A DNA stretch of 64,000 nucleotides, taken from contig NZ_CP019791.1 in assembly GCF_002007645.1 (NCBI RefSeq), forward strand, positions 2,046,001 to 2,110,000. Reading direction: 5' to 3'. The notes beneath the pieces are model-generated. The model searched no databases. It saw nothing but the letters and a program-made list of their open reading frames with translations, and had not been told where the DNA came from. The stretch is from Anaerohalosphaera lusitana (lineage in GTDB: Bacteria > Planctomycetota > Phycisphaerae > Sedimentisphaerales > Anaerohalosphaeraceae). A program made the position numbers and the translations under genes. Shown one piece after another: positions 13,530 through 23,306 of the stretch (positions are counted from its first letter, which is position 1; each line of letters begins with the position of its first letter).

Positions 13530-13763
13530 CGTTTTTTGTTCTAAATAGGGTGATGCGGCAACTTTTTTGGCTCATCACGGAATAACGAGGAGCGTTAACT
13601 TGAGCCGGGGCAAATTTAACAGCCTCGCCTCCGACGAACTTTGAAGGGGTCCATTCTCGGCGGACTGTGAAATTATGCGGTTGAAGGGCTTGGCAAACAG
13701 CAGTTATACTAAACGGTACTTCCGTTCCCAGATAACTTTTTTGCTGTTGACCATGAAATTGTC
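13530..13763. other. Intergenic stretch without recognised gene
   Basis: Between the CPBP promoter and the trp promoter I see no open frame with a ribosome site, no RNA gene and no repeat. Confidence 0.5.
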
Positions 13764-13793
13764 TTGACTTAGCGAATAGGGGTTTTGTATTAT
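13764..13793 (+). promoter_or_regulatory. Predicted trp operon promoter
   Basis: TTGACT (13764-13769), 18-nt spacer, TATTAT (13788-13793). Transcription is expected at about 13800-13801, which is the first base of the leader peptide's ATG. No separate operator palindrome is evident over the promoter. Confidence 0.72.
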
Positions 13794-13800
13794 GATTTGC

Positions 13801-13869
13801 ATGATGCAGAACGTTTACGCAAATTTTGCTAGCTGCTGGTGGTGGCCTGTCATGAAACGTGACAGGTAG
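13801..13869 (+). CDS. trpL: trp operon leader peptide with three tandem Trp codons
   Basis: A 22-codon open frame: starts ATGATG, ends TAG, and reads MMQNVYANFASC, then Trp-Trp-Trp (13837-13845), then PVMKRDR. Three consecutive tryptophans are very improbable by chance and are the hallmark of trp attenuator leader peptides. The Trp codons directly precede the first arm of the pause hairpin (13846-13852), so a ribosome stalled for charged tRNA-Trp would cover that arm. The first ATG coincides with the predicted transcription start, with no ribosome site, so the peptide is probably translated from a leaderless mRNA, as described for trpL of Sinorhizobium meliloti. It lies 134 nt before trpE. 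Confidence 0.88.
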   Translation: MMQNVYANFASCWWWPVMKRDR

Positions 13870-13952
13870 CGGGTTCTGCTATATACATTCAAAGAACCGG
13901 ACGATTTTCAATCGCAGCCTGTCCTTTTCCGACAGAGTTGCGATTTTTTTTT
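13846..13952 (+). promoter_or_regulatory. trp transcription attenuator (pause, antiterminator and terminator arms)
   Basis: Arm 1 CCTGTCA (13846-13852) and arm 2 TGACAGG (13860-13866) form a perfect 7-bp hairpin right after the Trp codons. Arm 2 GACAGG (13861-13866) can instead pair with arm 3 CCTGTC (13918-13923), extended by one wobble and two more pairs beyond a mismatch. Arm 3 otherwise belongs to the terminator with arm 4 GACAG (13931-13935). Ribosome stalling at Trp codons would mask arm 1, favour 2:3 and allow read-through; fast translation would favour 1:2 and 3:4 and stop transcription. Confidence 0.85.
13910..13952 (+). terminator. Attenuator terminator hairpin of the trp operon
   Basis: AATCGCAGC (13910-13918) pairs with GTTGCGATT (13937-13945), then a one-base bulge and CTGTC (13919-13923) with GACAG (13931-13935): about 14 bp in all, followed by T to 13952. 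It lies 51 nt upstream of trpE. Confidence 0.9.
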
Positions 13953-14003
13953 GCTCTGTCGGCTTGCTGCTCAACTAATAACGACGATGCTGAGGGACAA
14001 AAA

Positions 14004-15629
14004 ATGAACGATTTCAGACATTCAATCTACCAGGGCAAGCCGGGCGATATAGTGCCGCTGGTCAGGAAGCTGGATATGACCTGTCCGCTGGAGTTTTTCG
14101 CCAAATTGAGCGACTACGGGCAGAAAAAGCATAGCTGTCTGCTCGAGTCACGTGATTATCTGGCCTCTGACGGCTCAAACGAGCTGACTTTCGGGACGGC
14201 TGATCCGGCTTTGTATCTTACGGGCAAGGGCAATGAGTTTCGAATCGAGGCGCTGAACAAGACGGGTCGGCGGATGGTGCAGTTTCTGGCATGTGATGAG
14301 TCACGCTTTGATTTTTGTGAGTCCGTGGAGTTTACAGATGAGCTGATAACGGGTACTGTCCCTGAAATGCCAGAGGTCATCGATGAGGAATCGAGGCTTA
14401 AAACGACCAATCAGATGGACGTTTTAAGGGCGGTGGCGTTTGCGTTCAAGCTGGCTTACAAGCCTTTCAGAGTTACCTGCGGACTGATCGGGGCGTTGAG
14501 TTATGATTTCGTTGATCAGTTCGAGACGCTGCCGGCCAACGAATCAGACGAGCTTGAGAATCCCGATTACGAGCTTTATTTTGCCGACCATATGTTTTTG
14601 ATGGATCATGCGACGGGTGAGGGGTATGTGATAGTTAACGCCCTGATTACCGACGACGATCCGCACGGCGTGATCGAGGATGCACAGAAATGTTTCAGTT
14701 ATTATACGGAAGCTGCCGAACGTGAGATTAACGTCGGCAAGTCCGGAGGCGATGCCGAGGCCGAAAGAGCAAGCGATACCAGTGAGGGTGAATACACCGA
14801 CATGGTCGCAAAGGCTCGCGAGCACATTATTGACGGTGACATTTTCCAGGTGGTGCTGAGCAAGACCATCAGTCAGACCTGTCACGATCTGCCGTTGGAT
14901 GTTTACCGCAGGTTGCGGAAGCAGAATCCTTCGCCTTATATGTTCTATCTCAATACGGGCAATACAGTGCTGCTCGGGGCGAGTCCGGAGCTGAATCTGC
15001 GGGTGAGCGGATCGAAGCCATTTAATGTTGAGATCAGGCCCATTGCAGGTACACGACCGAGGGGGATGGCGAATGGGCGGATCGATGCGGAAACCGATGC
15101 ACGGTACGAAGCCGAGTTGAAGCTGGATGAGAAGGAACTGGCAGAGCATATGATGCTTGTGGATCTTGCACGCAATGATATTGCGAGGGTGGCTCAGCCG
15201 GGTACGAGGCTGGTCAATGAAATGCTTGTCACAGAGAAATATCAGTCTGTTATGCATCTTGTGAGCAATGTGAGGGGTGTGCTGAGGGAGGATCTGGATG
15301 CGCTGAGTGCTTACCTTGCGACGATGAACATGGGAACGTTGACCGGGGCACCCAAGATAGAAGCGATGAAAATAATTCGCGAGCTCGAAAAGAACAAGCG
15401 AGGTTATTACGGCGGGGCCGTGATGTATCTGACTGTGGATGGTCAGTTCGACAGTTGTATTACGATCAGAAGCATGCAGATAAAGGACGGCAAGGCTTAT
15501 GTGCGGGCGGGAGCGGGCATAGTGCACGACTCGGTGCCCAAGAATGAATTTGCGGAAACAGAGCACAAGTCCAGATCATGCCTGAGGGCGGTTGAGTCCG
15601 GCAGGGCCGTGCAGGAGGTGACAAAATGA
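14004..15629 (+). CDS. trpE: Anthranilate synthase component I
   Basis: Converts chorismate to anthranilate using ammonia supplied by TrpG. The 541-residue chain has the N-terminal feedback motif LLES (46-49), where tryptophan binds in this family, and the C-terminal chorismate-binding core with GDIFQVVLSKT, PSPYMFYLN, EIRPIAGTRPRG, DLARNDIARV and GTLTGAPKIEAMKIIRELE. ATG at 14004 has AGGGAC at suitable spacing; an upstream in-frame reading passes through the terminator hairpin and is rejected. It is the first structural gene after the attenuator and its stop overlaps trpG by four bases (ATGA), coupling translation of the two subunits. Confidence 0.97.
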   Translation: MNDFRHSIYQGKPGDIVPLVRKLDMTCPLEFFAKLSDYGQKKHSCLLESRDYLASDGSNELTFGTADPALYLTGKGNEFRIEALNKTGRRMVQFLACDESRFDFCESVEFTDELITGTVPEMPEVIDEESRLKTTNQMDVLRAVAFAFKLAYKPFRVTCGLIGALSYDFVDQFETLPANESDELENPDYELYFADHMFLMDHATGEGYVIVNALITDDDPHGVIEDAQKCFSYYTEAAEREINVGKSGGDAEAERASDTSEGEYTDMVAKAREHIIDGDIFQVVLSKTISQTCHDLPLDVYRRLRKQNPSPYMFYLNTGNTVLLGASPELNLRVSGSKPFNVEIRPIAGTRPRGMANGRIDAETDARYEAELKLDEKELAEHMMLVDLARNDIARVAQPGTRLVNEMLVTEKYQSVMHLVSNVRGVLREDLDALSAYLATMNMGTLTGAPKIEAMKIIRELEKNKRGYYGGAVMYLTVDGQFDSCITIRSMQIKDGKAYVRAGAGIVHDSVPKNEFAETEHKSRSCLRAVESGRAVQEVTK

Positions 15630-16240
15630 GTGACAAAAAATGTAAAGTGCTGTTTATAGATAATTTCGACTCGTTCACGTACAACCTTGTCGATGAGTTC
15701 GGCAAGAGGGATTGTGAGCTGCTGATCTATCGGGCGGATACGCCTATGGAAGTCCTGAAGCGGGTTGCGGATGAGTTTGGGCCGGACTTGCTGGTTATTT
15801 CGCCGGGTCCGGGCAATCCGGATACCGCGGGGGTTACTCTCGAAGCGATCGAGCATTTCAAGGACAGTGTGCCCATATTCGGTGTTTGCCTGGGACTGCA
15901 GTCGATCGTACAGCATTTCGGCGGGAAGATCGGGCACGCTCCTTGTGTGATGCACGGCAAGTCTTCGCGGATCACTCATGCGGGCGAAGGTGTATTTGAG
16001 GGGATCGAGAATCCGCTGCATGCGGGAAGATATCACAGTTTGTCGGCGATAGACGTTCCTGACTGCCTGAAGGTTACTGCTGAATTTGACGGTATTCCGA
16101 TGGGGATCCAACACAGGGAACTGCCGATACATGCTGTGCAGTTTCACCCGGAAAGCATTCTCACGCCGACCGGTGGAAAGATAATTGAAAATGTAATGAA
16201 AATTGCCGCTGAGGGAAGTGAACTGGCTTCTGCAAACTGA
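15626..16240 (+). CDS. trpG: Anthranilate synthase component II (glutamine amidotransferase)
   Basis: Releases ammonia from glutamine for TrpE. The 204-residue class I amidotransferase shows IDNFDSFTYNL at the N-terminus, the oxyanion segment SPGPGNP, the nucleophile in FGVCLGLQ (Cys88), and the His-Glu pair in QFHPES (His174, Glu176). It lacks any fused phosphoribosyltransferase, so it is the stand-alone type. In some bacteria such a subunit also serves PabB; no pabB is seen in the window, so dual use is possible but unproven. Translationally coupled to trpE. Confidence 0.96.
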   Translation: MSDKKCKVLFIDNFDSFTYNLVDEFGKRDCELLIYRADTPMEVLKRVADEFGPDLLVISPGPGNPDTAGVTLEAIEHFKDSVPIFGVCLGLQSIVQHFGGKIGHAPCVMHGKSSRITHAGEGVFEGIENPLHAGRYHSLSAIDVPDCLKVTAEFDGIPMGIQHRELPIHAVQFHPESILTPTGGKIIENVMKIAAEGSELASAN

Positions 16241-16258
16241 ATTGGGAGAACGGGAAGA

Positions 16259-17275
16259 ATGGCTAAAATAACAGAATATCTGGAGTTGATCCTCGAGGGT
16301 GAAAACCTTACATTTGAGCAGTCAAAGGAACTGCTCGACACGATCTTTGACGGTGAAGTGGCCGATGTGCAGATAGCGGCTTTTCTGGCGGCGATGCGGG
16401 TCAAGAGGGCAACTGTCGAGGAATTGGCTGGGCTGGCTTCATCGCTGAGAAGTCACTGTGTGAAGGTAGAGACGGGCCTGGAAAATGTGGTGGATACATG
16501 CGGGACCGGCGGTGCGAAGCTCAAGACTTTCAACATCTCGACGGCGGCGGCGCTGGTGGCTGCGGGTGCGGGTGTGCCGGTCGCAAAGCACGGTAATCGT
16601 GGAATAACAAGTTCGTGCGGTTCTGCGGACGTGCTGGAGGCGCTGGGTGTGAATGTCGAGGCTTCGCCTGATGTTATCGCGGAATGTATTACGAAGGCAG
16701 GTGTCGGTTTTATGTTCGCGCCGAGGTTTCATCCGGCGATGAAGCATGTTCAGCCGGTGCGTAAGAGTCTGGATTTCAGGACGGCGTTCAATATACTCGG
16801 CCCGTTGGCGAATCCTGCGAATGCGACGGGGCAGGTCATGGGTGTGCCGAGTGATGACATGATGATGCGGATCGCGAAGTCGCTGCAGATGCTGGGAATT
16901 AAAAAGGCGATGGTGGTGCACAGCGAAGGCCTTGACGAGATAAGTACATTGTGGCCGACTAAGATCGCGACTGTGTGTGAGGATGACGTTAAGGTTGATG
17001 TGTTTGATCCTCGGGATCATGGGATCGAGCTGGCGCGGTTTGATGATCTTAAAGGTAAGGATGCACAGGTGAACGCCGAGATAGTAAAAGGCGTGATAAC
17101 CGGTAAACTGGACGGTCCCAAGAAAGACATTGTGCTTATAAATGCTGCTGCGGCTATAATGGTGGGGCTTAAGGCGGATAATTTTGATGAGGGGCTTGCG
17201 ATGGCTCGTGAGTCGATACAGTCCGGCAAGGCTCAAGGTTCGCTGGACAAACTGGTTGAAATTTCGAATGGATAG
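16259..17275 (+). CDS. trpD: Anthranilate phosphoribosyltransferase
   Basis: Transfers phosphoribose from PRPP to anthranilate. At 338 residues it has normal length. The PRPP and anthranilate sites are visible as DTCGTGGAKLKTFNIST, KHGNRGITSSCGSADVLEALG and the metal-binding region preceding PTKIATV. GGGAGAACGGGAAG precedes its ATG 18 nt after trpG. Normally trpC lies next in such operons; here trpF follows after 21 nt, with no indole-3-glycerol phosphate synthase domain attached to either gene. Confidence 0.97.
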   Translation: MAKITEYLELILEGENLTFEQSKELLDTIFDGEVADVQIAAFLAAMRVKRATVEELAGLASSLRSHCVKVETGLENVVDTCGTGGAKLKTFNISTAAALVAAGAGVPVAKHGNRGITSSCGSADVLEALGVNVEASPDVIAECITKAGVGFMFAPRFHPAMKHVQPVRKSLDFRTAFNILGPLANPANATGQVMGVPSDDMMMRIAKSLQMLGIKKAMVVHSEGLDEISTLWPTKIATVCEDDVKVDVFDPRDHGIELARFDDLKGKDAQVNAEIVKGVITGKLDGPKKDIVLINAAAAIMVGLKADNFDEGLAMARESIQSGKAQGSLDKLVEISNG

Positions 17276-17296
17276 TTAAGGAAGAAGGATTCTTCG

Positions 17297-17920
17297 ATGG
17301 CTCTTGTAAAGATCAAGGTTTGTGGGATAACGAATGTAGAAGATGCAATGGCGGCGATCGACATGGGGGCGGACCTTCTCGGGTTCAATTTTTACCGGGA
17401 GAGTCCGCGTTATTTGGATGCTGCGGATGCGCTTGATATAATAAACAAGATACCGACTTTTGTTGATACTGCGGGTGTGTTTGTCAATCCGAGCATGGAA
17501 GAGCTTCGGGAGATAGTGGAGCTTGGATTTTTGAACTGGGTGCAATTGCATGGTGATGAGGACCCCGACTTCTGCGATTCGCTTAGGTATATGAACTGCC
17601 GTACGATAAAGGCTATTCGGGTCAAGTCTCAAGAGGATATAAAGCGTGCCAAGGATTATTATACCGATGCTGTTTTGTTCGATGCGTATCATCCGAACTA
17701 TTACGGCGGCACGGGTGAGACATTTGATTGGCGACTGATCGATGATCTTAACAGGCGGGTGTTCCTGGCCGGCGGGCTGGATCCGGATAATGCTGAGGAT
17801 GCGGTTTCCGTTGGGGTTTACGGCATCGATGTGTGCAGCGGGATCGAGTCGTCACCCGGTAAGAAGGATCTTAACGAAATGAAGCGTTTCTTTGACAACA
17901 TCAGGCATCTGGTTAATTAG
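17297..17920 (+). CDS. trpF: Phosphoribosylanthranilate isomerase
   Basis: Isomerises N-(5-phosphoribosyl)anthranilate to CdRP. A 207-residue TIM barrel that starts KIKVCGITNVEDA, carrying the catalytic Cys, followed by GADLLGFNFYRESPRY, LNWVQLHGDE, and the phosphate-binding LAGGLDPDN and GIDVCSGIESSPGKKD with the catalytic Asp. It is free-standing, not fused to TrpC. GAAGGA lies about seven nt before the ATG. Confidence 0.97.
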   Translation: MALVKIKVCGITNVEDAMAAIDMGADLLGFNFYRESPRYLDAADALDIINKIPTFVDTAGVFVNPSMEELREIVELGFLNWVQLHGDEDPDFCDSLRYMNCRTIKAIRVKSQEDIKRAKDYYTDAVLFDAYHPNYYGGTGETFDWRLIDDLNRRVFLAGGLDPDNAEDAVSVGVYGIDVCSGIESSPGKKDLNEMKRFFDNIRHLVN

Positions 17921-17947
17921 GCGGCCTGGCAAATTTAAGGTGATGTT

Positions 17948-19123
17948 ATGAAACATAAAGGCAAGTTTGGTGAGTTCGGGGGCTATTATGTGCCGGAGCT
18001 GTTGATCCCGCCTCTCGAGGATATCGAACAGGCGTTTTATCAGTACAAGGATGATAAGGATTTTGTGGCGGAGCTGAGCAATCTATATGCTGATTATGCA
18101 GGGCGACCGACGCCGTTGTATTTCGCGGAGCGTTTCAGCGAGTATGTCGGCTACAACGTTTACGTCAAGCGGGAGGATCTGCTGCATGGCGGGGCGCATA
18201 AGGTGAATAACACGCTTGGCCAATGTTTGCTCGCCAAGTATATGGGCAAGAAGAAGATCATTGCTGAGACCGGAGCGGGGCAGCATGGGCTTGCGACAGC
18301 GATGACAGGGGCGCTGCTGGGGATGGAAACGAAGATATTCATGGGGAAGATCGACGTTGAGAGGCAGAGCGTGAATGTGCATAAGATGAGGCTTTGCGGT
18401 GCGGAGGTTATTCCGGTGGCTGGCGGGACGGGTACACTGAAGGACGCGATCAATGAAGCGCTGCGGTACTGGACGGCGAATGTGGAAGATACGTTTTATG
18501 TATTCGGTTCGGTGTGCGGGCCGCATCCGTTCCCGACTGTGGTGAAGCATTTTCAGTCGCCGATCGGTACCGAGGCGAGGGCGCAGTGCATGGAGAAGCT
18601 AGGTAAGCTGCCTGATATGGTCACTGCGTGTGTGGGCGGCGGGTCGAACAGCATTGGGCTGTTTTCCGCGTTCGTGGCGGATGAGTCCGTGCGTATCGTC
18701 GGTGTTGAGCCTGCGGGTAAGGGGCTTGCGACCGATCAGCATGCGGCGAGCCTGGCGGCAGGGCGGGTTGGTGTGTTCCACGGCTCGAAGAGCTATCTGC
18801 TGCAGGACGATGAGGGGCAGGTGCATGAGACGGAATGCGTTTCTGCGGGGCTGGATTATCCCGCGGTGGGGCCGGAGCACTGTCATCTCAAGGACAGCGG
18901 CAGGGCGGAGTACGTTACGGTTACGGATGAGCAGGTGCTCGATGCGTTTGAGACGTTTACTCGTACGGAGGGGATTTTGCCCGCGCTGGAGAGCTCGCAC
19001 GCGATCGCGCATTTGATCGCGCTTAAGGGCAAACTTGCCGCGGAGACAAACGTTGTGCTGAATCTGTCCGGTAGGGGTGATAAGGACGTCGGCATTGTAG
19101 AAACTTACAGACCACTTGCATAG
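17948..19123 (+). CDS. trpB: Tryptophan synthase beta chain
   Basis: PLP enzyme joining indole and serine. The 391-residue chain starts [13 protein letters not shown], has [14 protein letters not shown], the PLP lysine in LHGGAHKVN (Lys85), the catalytic Glu region [13 protein letters not shown], and the PLP-phosphate loop [12 protein letters not shown], typical of the TrpB1 type that pairs with TrpA. trpA follows after 14 nt, as expected for the alpha-beta complex with an indole tunnel. A GTGATG-style ribosome site region AAGGTG precedes the start. Confidence 0.98.
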
Positions 19124-19137
19124 CTGGAGTAAAGGTG

Positions 19138-19932
19138 ATGACCACATATAAGCAAATATTTGAAAAGCTCGATTCAGCGGCACTTATTCCGTTTTTTGTG
19201 ATCGGTGATCCTAATTATGACAGCAGTCTGAAGATCGTAAAGTCGGCATTGGATGCCGGTGCGGATATTTTGGAGCTGGGTATTCCGTTCTCGGATCCGA
19301 TCGCTGACGGGCCGACGATACAGAAGGCCAATATACGGGCACGCAAGTCGGGTATGACGGTTGAGAAGGCGCTGGCGTTCATTAAGGAGGTTACGAGCCA
19401 TAAGCCTGTGCCGGTGGGGCTGCTGGTCTATTATAACTTGATCTATCAGTACGGCGTCGAGCGGTTTATGGCTGATTTCAAGGCGGCAGGCGGGACTTCA
19501 GTGCTTGTTGCGGACGTTTCGATCGACGATTCTGAAGAGATCGCCGGGCCTGCGCAGAAGGCGGGTCTGGAGACTGTCTTTATGGTTACGCCTAATACGC
19601 CCGATCACCGGATGGCGAGTATTGCTTCGAAGACAACCGGATTTGTCTATACGGTTTCCACGATGGGTGTAACGGGGGCGAGGACGAAGCTTTCCGATAC
19701 CGTCGCATCGCTGGTGGAGAGGATCAAGGGAGTGTCCGAGGTGCCGGTATGTGTCGGTTTTGGGATCAGCAGTCCCGAGCAGGCCAGGCGGGTCGCCGAT
19801 GCGGGGGCCGATGGTGTAATAGTAGGCAGCCGAATAGTCCAGATCATCGAAGACAACGCGGACTCGGTTGAGGATGCGTGTGCGGGTGTGGGGCAGTTTA
19901 TTGCAGATGTAAAATCGCGGCTCAATGGTTAG
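19138..19932 (+). CDS. trpA: Tryptophan synthase alpha chain
   Basis: Cleaves indole-3-glycerol phosphate to indole and GAP. A 264-residue TIM barrel with LELGIPFSDPIADGPTIQ, which carries catalytic Glu46 and Asp57, then VLVADVSIDDS, VSTMGVTGAR and the phosphate-binding VGFGISSPEQ and DGVIVGSRIV. I start at ATG 19138, which has GGAG upstream; a GTG one codon earlier is possible. It is the last gene of the operon, and no clear terminator was found in the 140 nt that follow. Confidence 0.97.
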   Translation: MTTYKQIFEKLDSAALIPFFVIGDPNYDSSLKIVKSALDAGADILELGIPFSDPIADGPTIQKANIRARKSGMTVEKALAFIKEVTSHKPVPVGLLVYYNLIYQYGVERFMADFKAAGGTSVLVADVSIDDSEEIAGPAQKAGLETVFMVTPNTPDHRMASIASKTTGFVYTVSTMGVTGARTKLSDTVASLVERIKGVSEVPVCVGFGISSPEQARRVADAGADGVIVGSRIVQIIEDNADSVEDACAGVGQFIADVKSRLNG

Positions 19933-20075: not shown

Positions 20076-23000
20076 ATGCGCAGAATCACACAGCACCCCA
20101 TTCTGGACATTGAGCCAGCCAGAACTACGGCGTTCGACTATAACGGCGATAAAGTTGTTGGCAGAAAAGGATTTACGATCGCTGCTGCGCTGCACCAGGC
20201 CGGTTATCCAGTGCACAGTCACAGTCTGAAGAATCGTAATCGTTCGCTGGAGTGCGGGATCGGGAAGTGCGGTGCGTGTGAAATGCTGGTCGATGGGCAG
20301 ATCAGGCGAATCTGCATTACCAAGGTTGACGGCGTTGAGGAGGTTAGGGAGATACCGCGGGGCTATGAGCCGCCGACCATGCCGGTCAGCAAGGACGAGC
20401 AGACCCGTATTTACCGTACCACTGTTGCTATAATTGGTGCCGGGCCGGCGGGACTGGCAACGCGGGAGGAGCTTAACAAGCATAATATAGATAACATCGT
20501 TATCGACAACAATGACTGCATTGGCGGACAGTTTTTGATGCAGACACACCAGTTCTTTTTCTTCGAGAAGGAGAAGAAGTTCGGCGGGATGAGAGGTTTT
20601 GACATTGCCAGCACACTCGCTGGTGAGAATCATGAAGGTATATTTCTCAACTCCACGGTGTGGGACCTGCTGGAAGGCAAACGGCTGGCGGTGAAGGATT
20701 TGACGGCTGACAGGGTTTTCTATATTGATGCCGATTATCTCGTGGTCGCAACCGGTGCGGTACCGTTCATGCCGCCTTTTGAAAATGATGATCTGCCGGG
20801 CGTTTATACCGCAGCGGTTGTGCAGAAGATGATGAACACCGAGTTTACTCTGCTGGGGAAAAATGTACTCACTGTCGGTGCGGGGAATATTGGCTATCTT
20901 ACTTCATATCAGCTCATGCAGGCCGGTGCGAATGTCAAAGCTATTCTGGAAGCACGCAACCAGGAGGGCGGGTTTCCCGTGCAGGCCAATCGTGTCCGGC
21001 GGCTGGGCATTCCTTTTATTCTCTCGCATGTGCTTGTGGAGGCGATACCGAACGAGAAGCATGACGGTATAATAGGGGCGGTCGTTGCTGAGTGTGAGAA
21101 CTTCCAGCCTGTGCCGGGTACGGAAAAACGAATCTACGGCATTGACGCGATAAACATCTGTACGGGTCTGGTGCCTGACGATCAGTTGCTTCGCAAGGGT
21201 CATGACGTATTCGGCAGGCAGTGTCTGGGGGCGGGGGACGCGATACGGATCGGAGAGGGGACCAGTGCCGTTCTTCGCGGACAGCAGGTCGCTTACGAGA
21301 TACTGGAGCAGATGCATGCCCGATATGATTATGACGCCTATCTGCAGGTTTCAAAGGAATACATCGATTCGCAGCAGCATCCGGTGAAGGTGTTCGAAAT
21401 GCCTTTCAAGCCCACGCATGATAGAATGCAAAAGCCTTTCGTGCTGATAGACTGCATATATGGTTTTGCGTGCAATCCCTGTGCGTTCGCCTGTCCGTAT
21501 GGGGCTATTACAAAGACATCGACCAGTTCGGTGCCTCGGATCGATTATGATAAGTGCGTTGGGTGCATGCAGTGTGTGCATCAGTGTCCCGGTCTGGCGA
21601 TATTCGGGTATAATCTGCAGAAGGGGCTTTTGTATCTGCCGATCGAGTACGAGGTTGACGAAAAAGCTGAAGTTTATATCGTAGACAACAGCGGTCAGAA
21701 GCTGGGTGAGGGCATTATCGAAAAGGTCCTTCTAAAGGATAACAAAACTAATGTCGCACGGGTCAGGTCACTGGATCTTACCGGTGAAGCACTTATGCAG
21801 GCGCGGGGTTTTGTATTGAAGGAGAGATTTCCAAAGCCCCTCGAATTCGGTCAGCATGAGCGGACGGTGGATTCGGAGAAGTATATCTGCCACTGTGATG
21901 ACGTGAAGCTGGAAGAGATACTGGAGGTCATCGGCGATCGGAAGTTTATTTCCATCGATGAGATCAAGCATACAACGCGGCTCGGTATGGGAGCGTGCCG
22001 GGGCAAGCGATGTATCGGTCGATTGAGGCAGACGCTGTCTCCGATGGGCATTTCGATAGTGGGAAGACCTACGCCGCGGGCGCCGCTGTCAAATCAGTTG
22101 AGCATGGGTGAGCTGTACCCGCACGATGCGCATGCGAAAGTTATTACAAATCTCAACGGCCGAAGTTATAAGGTCATAAGGACCAAAGCATTCATTGCGG
22201 GTGGGGGAATAGGCGGCAGCGCCCTGTTCAGGTATTTTGCCGAAGCGGGTCAGAATCCTGTGATGATCAATTTCGGCAGGGGAGCAAGCTGGCGGAACAT
22301 TGCAGGTGGCCGGCCGGCGTTCTCGGTTCCTGAGCTGTCGGACATCGCTCAAAAGAACCACGAGATATTCAAGCAGCTTCAAAAAGTCAAAAATATTGAT
22401 TACCGCCAGATAAAATACGTGACATTTGCGCACGATCAGGCGACTTACGACGCGCTGGATGCATCACGCAACTGGTCCAATGCTAAGATGATCGAGCCTG
22501 AAGATTTCAACAAGGTCATTTCGCCCGCTTTCAATGGCGATCTCGATACATACCTTGCTGCACTGGTGACGGAGGACTGCTGGCAGGCGACGCCTGGCAG
22601 GGTTGTCGATCTGCTTCGCACCATGGGAATAAGTGCCGGCGGACAGGTATTCGAGGATTGCGAACTGATCGATGTGCAGAAGTCGGGTGATATCTACGAG
22701 ATTCTGGTCAGGGATCACAACAGACAGTATATCACTTTCAAGGCGGATCATTTCGTTAATGCGTTGGGGCCGGAAGGGGATACATTTGCAAGGCGTCTGG
22801 GACACCATACAGGGATATATCCTGTGAAGCATCAGGCGTTTATAACGAGAAGACTGCCCATGATGGGATTCGATGGTGAGCCGTTGCCTATGGTTATTGA
22901 CAGGCGCAAATATAAGGGATTCACGGCTGTTTACGGGCAGCAGCTTGCAGAGACGGGGCAGATAATCGGCTGTGCGAGTCCTGCGGTTGATCCTGCCGAG

Positions 23001-23306
23001 ACGGACAAGGATCTGAAGATCAATTCGCGTGATTTTCTGGAGATCGTGTCCGAGGTATTCGTAGACTGGCTGCCTTCGCTTTCGAGCGTTGGTTTCCAGG
23101 CTGTCTGGGCGGGTTACTATGTAGAGCCGAGAATGATAGTCGATCCGGATGCGGGGCTGTTCATCGGTTTGCGGGGTCAGGGATTCATGCTGGGGCAGTA
23201 TCTAGCCAAGCTTTACGTTGATAAGATCATGGGCAAGGAAACGCCTGAGTATTTCGACCGGCTCAAGCTGTCCGGTGACGGTCTGCTCGAAAAGGCCTTC
23301 AAGTAG
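20076..23306 (+). CDS. Fused iron-sulfur/FAD dehydrogenase (HcnABC / sarcosine-hydroxyproline dehydrogenase-like, three subunits in one chain)
   Basis: A 1076-residue multidomain redox enzyme. Residues 1-100 form a 2Fe-2S domain with Cys60, 65, 68 and 80 (CGIGKCGAC). Residues 115-440 form an NAD/FAD oxidoreductase with GAGPAGLA (121-127) and GAGNIG near 267. Two 4Fe-4S motifs follow (CNPCAFACP from 466, CVGCMQCVHQCP from 494). A BFD-like 2Fe-2S site has CHCDD at 605 and CRGKRC at 641-646. Residues 700-1076 are a D-amino-acid-oxidase-like FAD domain beginning AFIAGGGIGGSALF. The same parts occur as separate A, B and C subunits in HcnABC and in opine, D-hydroxyproline and sarcosine dehydrogenases. 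Likely substrate: an imino or amino acid (inference). GAGG ribosome site present. Confidence 0.85.
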   Translation: MRRITQHPILDIEPARTTAFDYNGDKVVGRKGFTIAAALHQAGYPVHSHSLKNRNRSLECGIGKCGACEMLVDGQIRRICITKVDGVEEVREIPRGYEPPTMPVSKDEQTRIYRTTVAIIGAGPAGLATREELNKHNIDNIVIDNNDCIGGQFLMQTHQFFFFEKEKKFGGMRGFDIASTLAGENHEGIFLNSTVWDLLEGKRLAVKDLTADRVFYIDADYLVVATGAVPFMPPFENDDLPGVYTAAVVQKMMNTEFTLLGKNVLTVGAGNIGYLTSYQLMQAGANVKAILEARNQEGGFPVQANRVRRLGIPFILSHVLVEAIPNEKHDGIIGAVVAECENFQPVPGTEKRIYGIDAINICTGLVPDDQLLRKGHDVFGRQCLGAGDAIRIGEGTSAVLRGQQVAYEILEQMHARYDYDAYLQVSKEYIDSQQHPVKVFEMPFKPTHDRMQKPFVLIDCIYGFACNPCAFACPYGAITKTSTSSVPRIDYDKCVGCMQCVHQCPGLAIFGYNLQKGLLYLPIEYEVDEKAEVYIVDNSGQKLGEGIIEKVLLKDNKTNVARVRSLDLTGEALMQARGFVLKERFPKPLEFGQHERTVDSEKYICHCDDVKLEEILEVIGDRKFISIDEIKHTTRLGMGACRGKRCIGRLRQTLSPMGISIVGRPTPRAPLSNQLSMGELYPHDAHAKVITNLNGRSYKVIRTKAFIAGGGIGGSALFRYFAEAGQNPVMINFGRGASWRNIAGGRPAFSVPELSDIAQKNHEIFKQLQKVKNIDYRQIKYVTFAHDQATYDALDASRNWSNAKMIEPEDFNKVISPAFNGDLDTYLAALVTEDCWQATPGRVVDLLRTMGISAGGQVFEDCELIDVQKSGDIYEILVRDHNRQYITFKADHFVNALGPEGDTFARRLGHHTGIYPVKHQAFITRRLPMMGFDGEPLPMVIDRRKYKGFTAVYGQQLAETGQIIGCASPAVDPAETDKDLKINSRDFLEIVSEVFVDWLPSLSSVGFQAVWAGYYVEPRMIVDPDAGLFIGLRGQGFMLGQYLAKLYVDKIMGKETPEYFDRLKLSGDGLLEKAFK

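Follow-up and report, generated by a model that had tools for sequence, protein, structure and literature searches.

The window analyzed here, a 64 kb stretch of Anaerohalosphaera lusitana DNA, carries the tryptophan operon trpEGDFBA (14004-19932, + strand), preceded by a short region with a predicted promoter, a leader open reading frame (ORF) containing three tandem Trp codons, and RNA segments able to form alternative helices. The features of the locus are as follows:

13764-13793, + strand: predicted sigma-70 type promoter, TTGACT (13764-13769), 18 nt, TATTAT (13788-13793), from a promoter match, with the same layout in 67/73 loci
13801-13869, + strand: leader ORF of 22 codons, MMQNVYANFASCWWWPVMKRDR followed by a stop, from translation and conservation in relatives
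13837-13845, + strand: candidate regulatory codons, Trp-Trp-Trp in tandem, from translation, the run being kept in 74/77 trpE upstream regions
13867-13869, + strand: leader stop codon
13846-13852 and 13860-13866, + strand: hairpin 1:2, arm 1 CCTGTCA and arm 2 TGACAGG, from folding and compensated variation
13861-13871, + strand: predicted antiterminator 2:3, 5' side, GACAGGU and GCG
13913-13923, + strand: predicted antiterminator 2:3, 3' side, CGC and GCCUGUC, which is also the 5' side of the terminator
13918-13923, + strand: arm 3 core, CCTGTC
13910-13945, + strand: predicted intrinsic terminator 3:4, T run to 13952, from folding, with a terminator behind 74/74 leaders
14004-15629, + strand: trpE, from a family search
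15626-16240, + strand: trpG, name read from the translation
16259-17275, + strand: trpD, name read from the translation
17297-17920, + strand: trpF, name read from the translation
17948-19123, + strand: trpB, name read from the translation
19135-19932, + strand: trpA, name read from the translation

The sole trpC (indole-3-glycerol phosphate synthase) lies outside the operon at G000:C1:1755352-1756134, and no leader or attenuator was found upstream of it. Just past trpA, a 1076-aa ORF (20076-23306) appears from its translation to be a two-part oxidoreductase-type fusion that contains ferredoxin-like cysteine motifs.

The initial annotation had described a leader peptide with three Trp codons, an arm 1 directly 3' of these codons that pairs with arm 2, and a terminator of 14 pairs with its T run; the sequence agrees with each of these parts at the coordinates given above, as does the fold for the terminator. 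It had also proposed pairing between arms 2 and 3, which exists, but the antiterminator is longer than claimed and consists of 7 bp (13861-13867 with 13917-13923) plus 3 bp (13869-13871 with 13913-13915). A chance origin of the arrangement is excluded: neither an ATG..WWW..stop leader nor the full arrangement appeared in any of 20,000 dinucleotide shuffles of 13764-14003, and WWW within a short ATG-started ORF occurs once on the two strands of the window, in the trp leader itself. Judged from these parts, the region has the appearance of a textbook ribosome-controlled trp attenuator of the E. coli kind, with an ordinary mechanism.

Folding of the region 13801-14003 gave -62.9 kcal/mol (z of -2.55 versus dinucleotide shuffles). 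In a fold that simulated a ribosome stalled at the Trp codons, with the polymerase having just completed arm 3, the window sequence adopted helix 2:3 with its 7 + 3 pairs as the structure of lowest energy (-19.0 kcal/mol); moving the ribosome to the stop codon left the terminator alone (-18.6 kcal/mol). The same blocking folds across the leaders yielded helix 2:3 in 74/74 cases for the Trp stall and the terminator in 74/74 cases for the stop codon. In the full-length equilibrium fold, the terminator beats helix 2:3 even with arm 1 blocked; because the complete arm 4 lets the terminator win at equilibrium, antitermination would depend on co-transcriptional kinetics. Antitermination at the E. 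coli trp operon is likewise kinetic. The terminator 3' arm CCGACAGAG (13929-13937) is also exactly complementary to CTCTGTCGG (13954-13962), located just past the T run, and this second segment is a possible fifth arm; by eye, something similar was seen in the relative L053 only.

Conservation was assessed over the 600 nt preceding trpE in 76 named contigs and the window (77 regions). The nearest named TrpE relatives are found in Planctomycetota metagenome-assembled genomes labelled Anaerohalosphaeraceae, Sedimentisphaerales, and Phycisphaerae, with a best identity of 70%. A short ORF with WW or WxW is present in 74/77 regions, usually in the form M(K/R)(Q/R)N....WWWP(V/A)(G/E), or in short M..N....WWWP.., so that the loss of the Trp run in relatives, named beforehand as a refutation, was not found. 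Relative to the end of the Trp run, arm 1 starts at offsets of -2 to +5 nt, most often -1, and it stays within 2 nt in nearly all 74. The three exceptions (L091, L098, and L101, the latter two sharing one genus, g2) keep the leader, hairpins, terminator, and promoter, with the Trp codons reduced to one or two (for example, YWRRPQA), which suggests that these loci can do without a full tandem run; they offer a natural test of the number of Trp codons needed. A covariance model of the attenuator, built from 32 of the trpE upstream regions, gave 72 matches in trpE upstream loci, window included, and exactly one match in the window's own genome. Across 248 genomes of the class, its strong matches were limited to families f1, f2, f6, and f7 of the same order, and two weak matches outside the order had no Trp leader. 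The weak matches G222:C16, G041:C16, G202, and G270, which lack a Trp leader and are probably ordinary hairpins, were rejected. Upstream of trpE in 59 regions from the class and phylum outside the order, only scattered WW/WxW ORFs were found and the conserved form was absent. These comparisons indicate that the predicted Trp attenuator is conserved across the order Sedimentisphaerales.

Analysis of sequence variation in the paired arms indicated that all three helices are maintained. For helices 1:2 and 3:4, double changes occurred at 13/17 pairs, and 67 cells were changed on both sides, compared with 29.8 after shuffling; in the terminator 3:4, 9 of the 11 predicted consensus pairs showed double changes. 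Helix 2:3 provides the most telling test because it excludes both 1:2 and 3:4, and the model alignment (A2) was fitted to 1:2 and 3:4 alone, with helix 2:3 not used. In this alignment, the main 6 bp of helix 2:3 are paired in 93.7% of cells and the extension in 69%, and shifting the entire 2:3 structure by 1-3 columns reduced pairing from 85.5% to 29-48%. The mean energy of arm 2 with its own arm 3 was -16.4 kcal/mol, compared with -13.9 ± 0.33 (sd) kcal/mol for cross-species combinations (0/20,000 permutations), a difference that shared ancestry inflates somewhat. Whole-arm replacements such as CCUAC/GUAGG in L118 are hard to explain by shared ancestry alone. The uncompensated arm changes that would have spoken against the initial annotation did not appear, as the arms, including those of helix 2:3, vary with compensation, and this pattern argues that the mutually exclusive 2:3 antiterminator is under selection.

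The predicted promoter of the window ends 7 nt before the leader ATG (13801). A strict promoter match ending 5-11 nt before the leader ATG was found in 67/73 loci (window and relatives), compared with 1.0 on average and at most 5 in shuffled sets, and the same abutting promoter occurred at the trpE start itself in 0/74. No purine-rich Shine-Dalgarno sequence was found before the leader ATG in the window or its relatives, and the anti-Shine-Dalgarno energy was -1.2 kcal/mol before the leader versus -4.5 kcal/mol before trpE. The abutting promoter together with the missing Shine-Dalgarno sequence leads us to predict that the leader ORF is leaderless, with the transcript 5' end at or a few nucleotides from the ATG, as in Sinorhizobium meliloti trpL. 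In such an arrangement, initiation on leaderless RNA would be directly readable by a simple reporter.

A rather unlikely alternative is that transcription begins at a more distant upstream promoter, giving a longer 5' UTR on which the leader is Shine-Dalgarno-led; the attenuator would then be classical in its initiation too. A weaker promoter match at 13681-13710 would fit such a transcript, and f4 and f5, two families of this order with divergent TrpE proteins (35-39% identity), point the same way. In all nine f4/f5 upstream regions examined (L048-L052 and L178-L181), a short ORF contains two to four Trp codons close together; a scored terminator follows in 8/9, and in L178 the ORF is followed by a strong hairpin whose T run is short. 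Judged by eye, most of these leader ATGs are preceded by a purine-rich Shine-Dalgarno-like sequence, the best promoter match is often farther upstream (f5 promoters tend to be farther away), and the f4/f5 Trp leaders thus appear to be Shine-Dalgarno-led. Against a longer 5' UTR in the window and its close relatives stand the promoter placed at 5-11 nt in most loci and the absent purine-rich sequence, and we retain the leaderless start as the preferred reading. Most of the f5 trpE reading frames are long, at about 700 aa, and may represent a trpEG fusion.

At the level of sequence, the parts of the attenuator, their order, their conservation, and their covariation are well documented, and the blocking folds, conservation, and covariation support the view of the initial annotation that the arrangement of the parts is what ribosome-controlled attenuation needs. 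We consider it almost certain that this region controls the trp operon by ribosome-mediated attenuation of transcription. In the proposed mechanism, transcription would start at or beside the leader ATG, and the ribosome would begin at the RNA 5' end without a Shine-Dalgarno sequence. When charged tRNA-Trp is scarce, the ribosome would stall at 13837-13845 and cover arm 1, leaving arm 2 free for pairing with the emerging arm 3, and the polymerase would enter trpEGDFBA. When tryptophan is ample, the ribosome would reach the stop codon at 13867-13869 and cover arm 2, arm 3 would pair with arm 4, and transcription would end at the T run. If no ribosome is present, helices 1:2 and 3:4 would form and transcription would presumably end as well. 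Leader translation, the leaderless start, the tryptophan response, and how strongly the terminator acts are the inferred parts of this proposal.

That the terminator is instead a constitutive promoter-proximal element, with a chance or relic leader ORF and no tryptophan-dependent regulation, is very improbable: the Trp run eroded in L091 and, within a single genus, in L098 and L101 would suit it, and the peptide, stop position, and exclusive helices kept in at least 74 genomes, with TrpE identity down to about 62%, argue against it. Even less credible is control of the terminator by a non-ribosome factor with incidental Trp codons, since, although T-box, TRAP-like protein, and riboswitch systems control trp genes in other bacteria, the window has no Rfam match, T-boxes included (none at the gathering threshold and a chance match only at the relaxed one), only three scattered (G/U)AG triplets are visible by eye in 13801-13945, and throughout the order the Trp run keeps its phase relative to arm 1.

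Leader ORFs were also sought upstream of other biosynthetic genes, and none was found upstream of hisG and ilvB. Upstream of leuA in the same genome (G000:C1:486914), a leader ORF MSTAIENISVRSNLLALLLLRR is located at L184:1296-1364; its ATG lies 7 nt past the end of a promoter TTGTCA-17-TATTAT, so that this Leu leader, like the trp leader, is predicted to be leaderless. Among 30 leuA loci from this genome and its relatives, most carry ...LLLLR(R/L/P) leaders in which the promoter is similarly spaced and a GCGCC..GGCGC hairpin sits at the stop, with no clear intrinsic terminator. We lean toward a broader view in which Sedimentisphaerales sense Trp, and probably Leu, through leader ORFs at the RNA 5' end, and in which the trp attenuator switched between leaderless and Shine-Dalgarno-led forms within the order, alongside the replacement of trpE by a divergent version.

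The initial annotation knew of no characterised case in this bacterial group, and we likewise found no report of a trp attenuator in Planctomycetota in the openly readable literature, and an earlier in silico report elsewhere is possible; Rfam Trp_leader gave no match at the gathering score or at a relaxed E-value. New relative to that annotation are the predicted leaderless arrangement, the additional pairs of the antiterminator, and the distribution across the order. Attenuation needs transcription-translation coupling, so an order-wide attenuator would be evidence that such coupling works in these structurally unusual cells.

In E. coli, trpL has two tandem Trp codons overlapping arm 1, helices 1:2, 2:3, and 3:4, and an intrinsic terminator upstream of trpE. 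The leader described here shares the tandem Trp codons, the alternative helices, the intrinsic terminator, and the position before trpE, and it differs in having three Trp codons, a predicted start at the very 5' end of the RNA with no Shine-Dalgarno sequence, another phylum, the gene order trpEGDFBA without trpC, and no sequence-level match in Rfam. A parallel for the predicted start is the ribosome-dependent Trp attenuator trpLE(G) of S. meliloti, in which the RNA 5' end is reported to start with the trpL ATG (PMC7298713). That attenuator controls trpE(G) only, whereas a six-gene operon follows here in another phylum, and our analysis gave no evidence for the trans-acting RNA or peptide roles. 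Trp leader attenuation outside Proteobacteria is likewise represented by the trp attenuators of Actinobacteria, where the leuA LEU elements (PMC1262725) resemble the leuA leaders found here in combining a Leu-run leader ORF with no clear terminator. Firmicutes provide an earlier extension of leader-peptide attenuation to a new phylum, in the form of histidine leader peptides preceding hisS/hisZ; according to the 2010 survey that described them, such systems had been known only from Proteobacteria and Actinobacteria (PMC2965389). They differ from the present case in amino acid, genes, and phylum. Compared with these systems, the predicted Planctomycetota attenuator would extend classical ribosome-mediated attenuation to a further phylum with about 75 comparative examples, and it is of value for its phylum, its deep conservation, and its predicted leaderless start.
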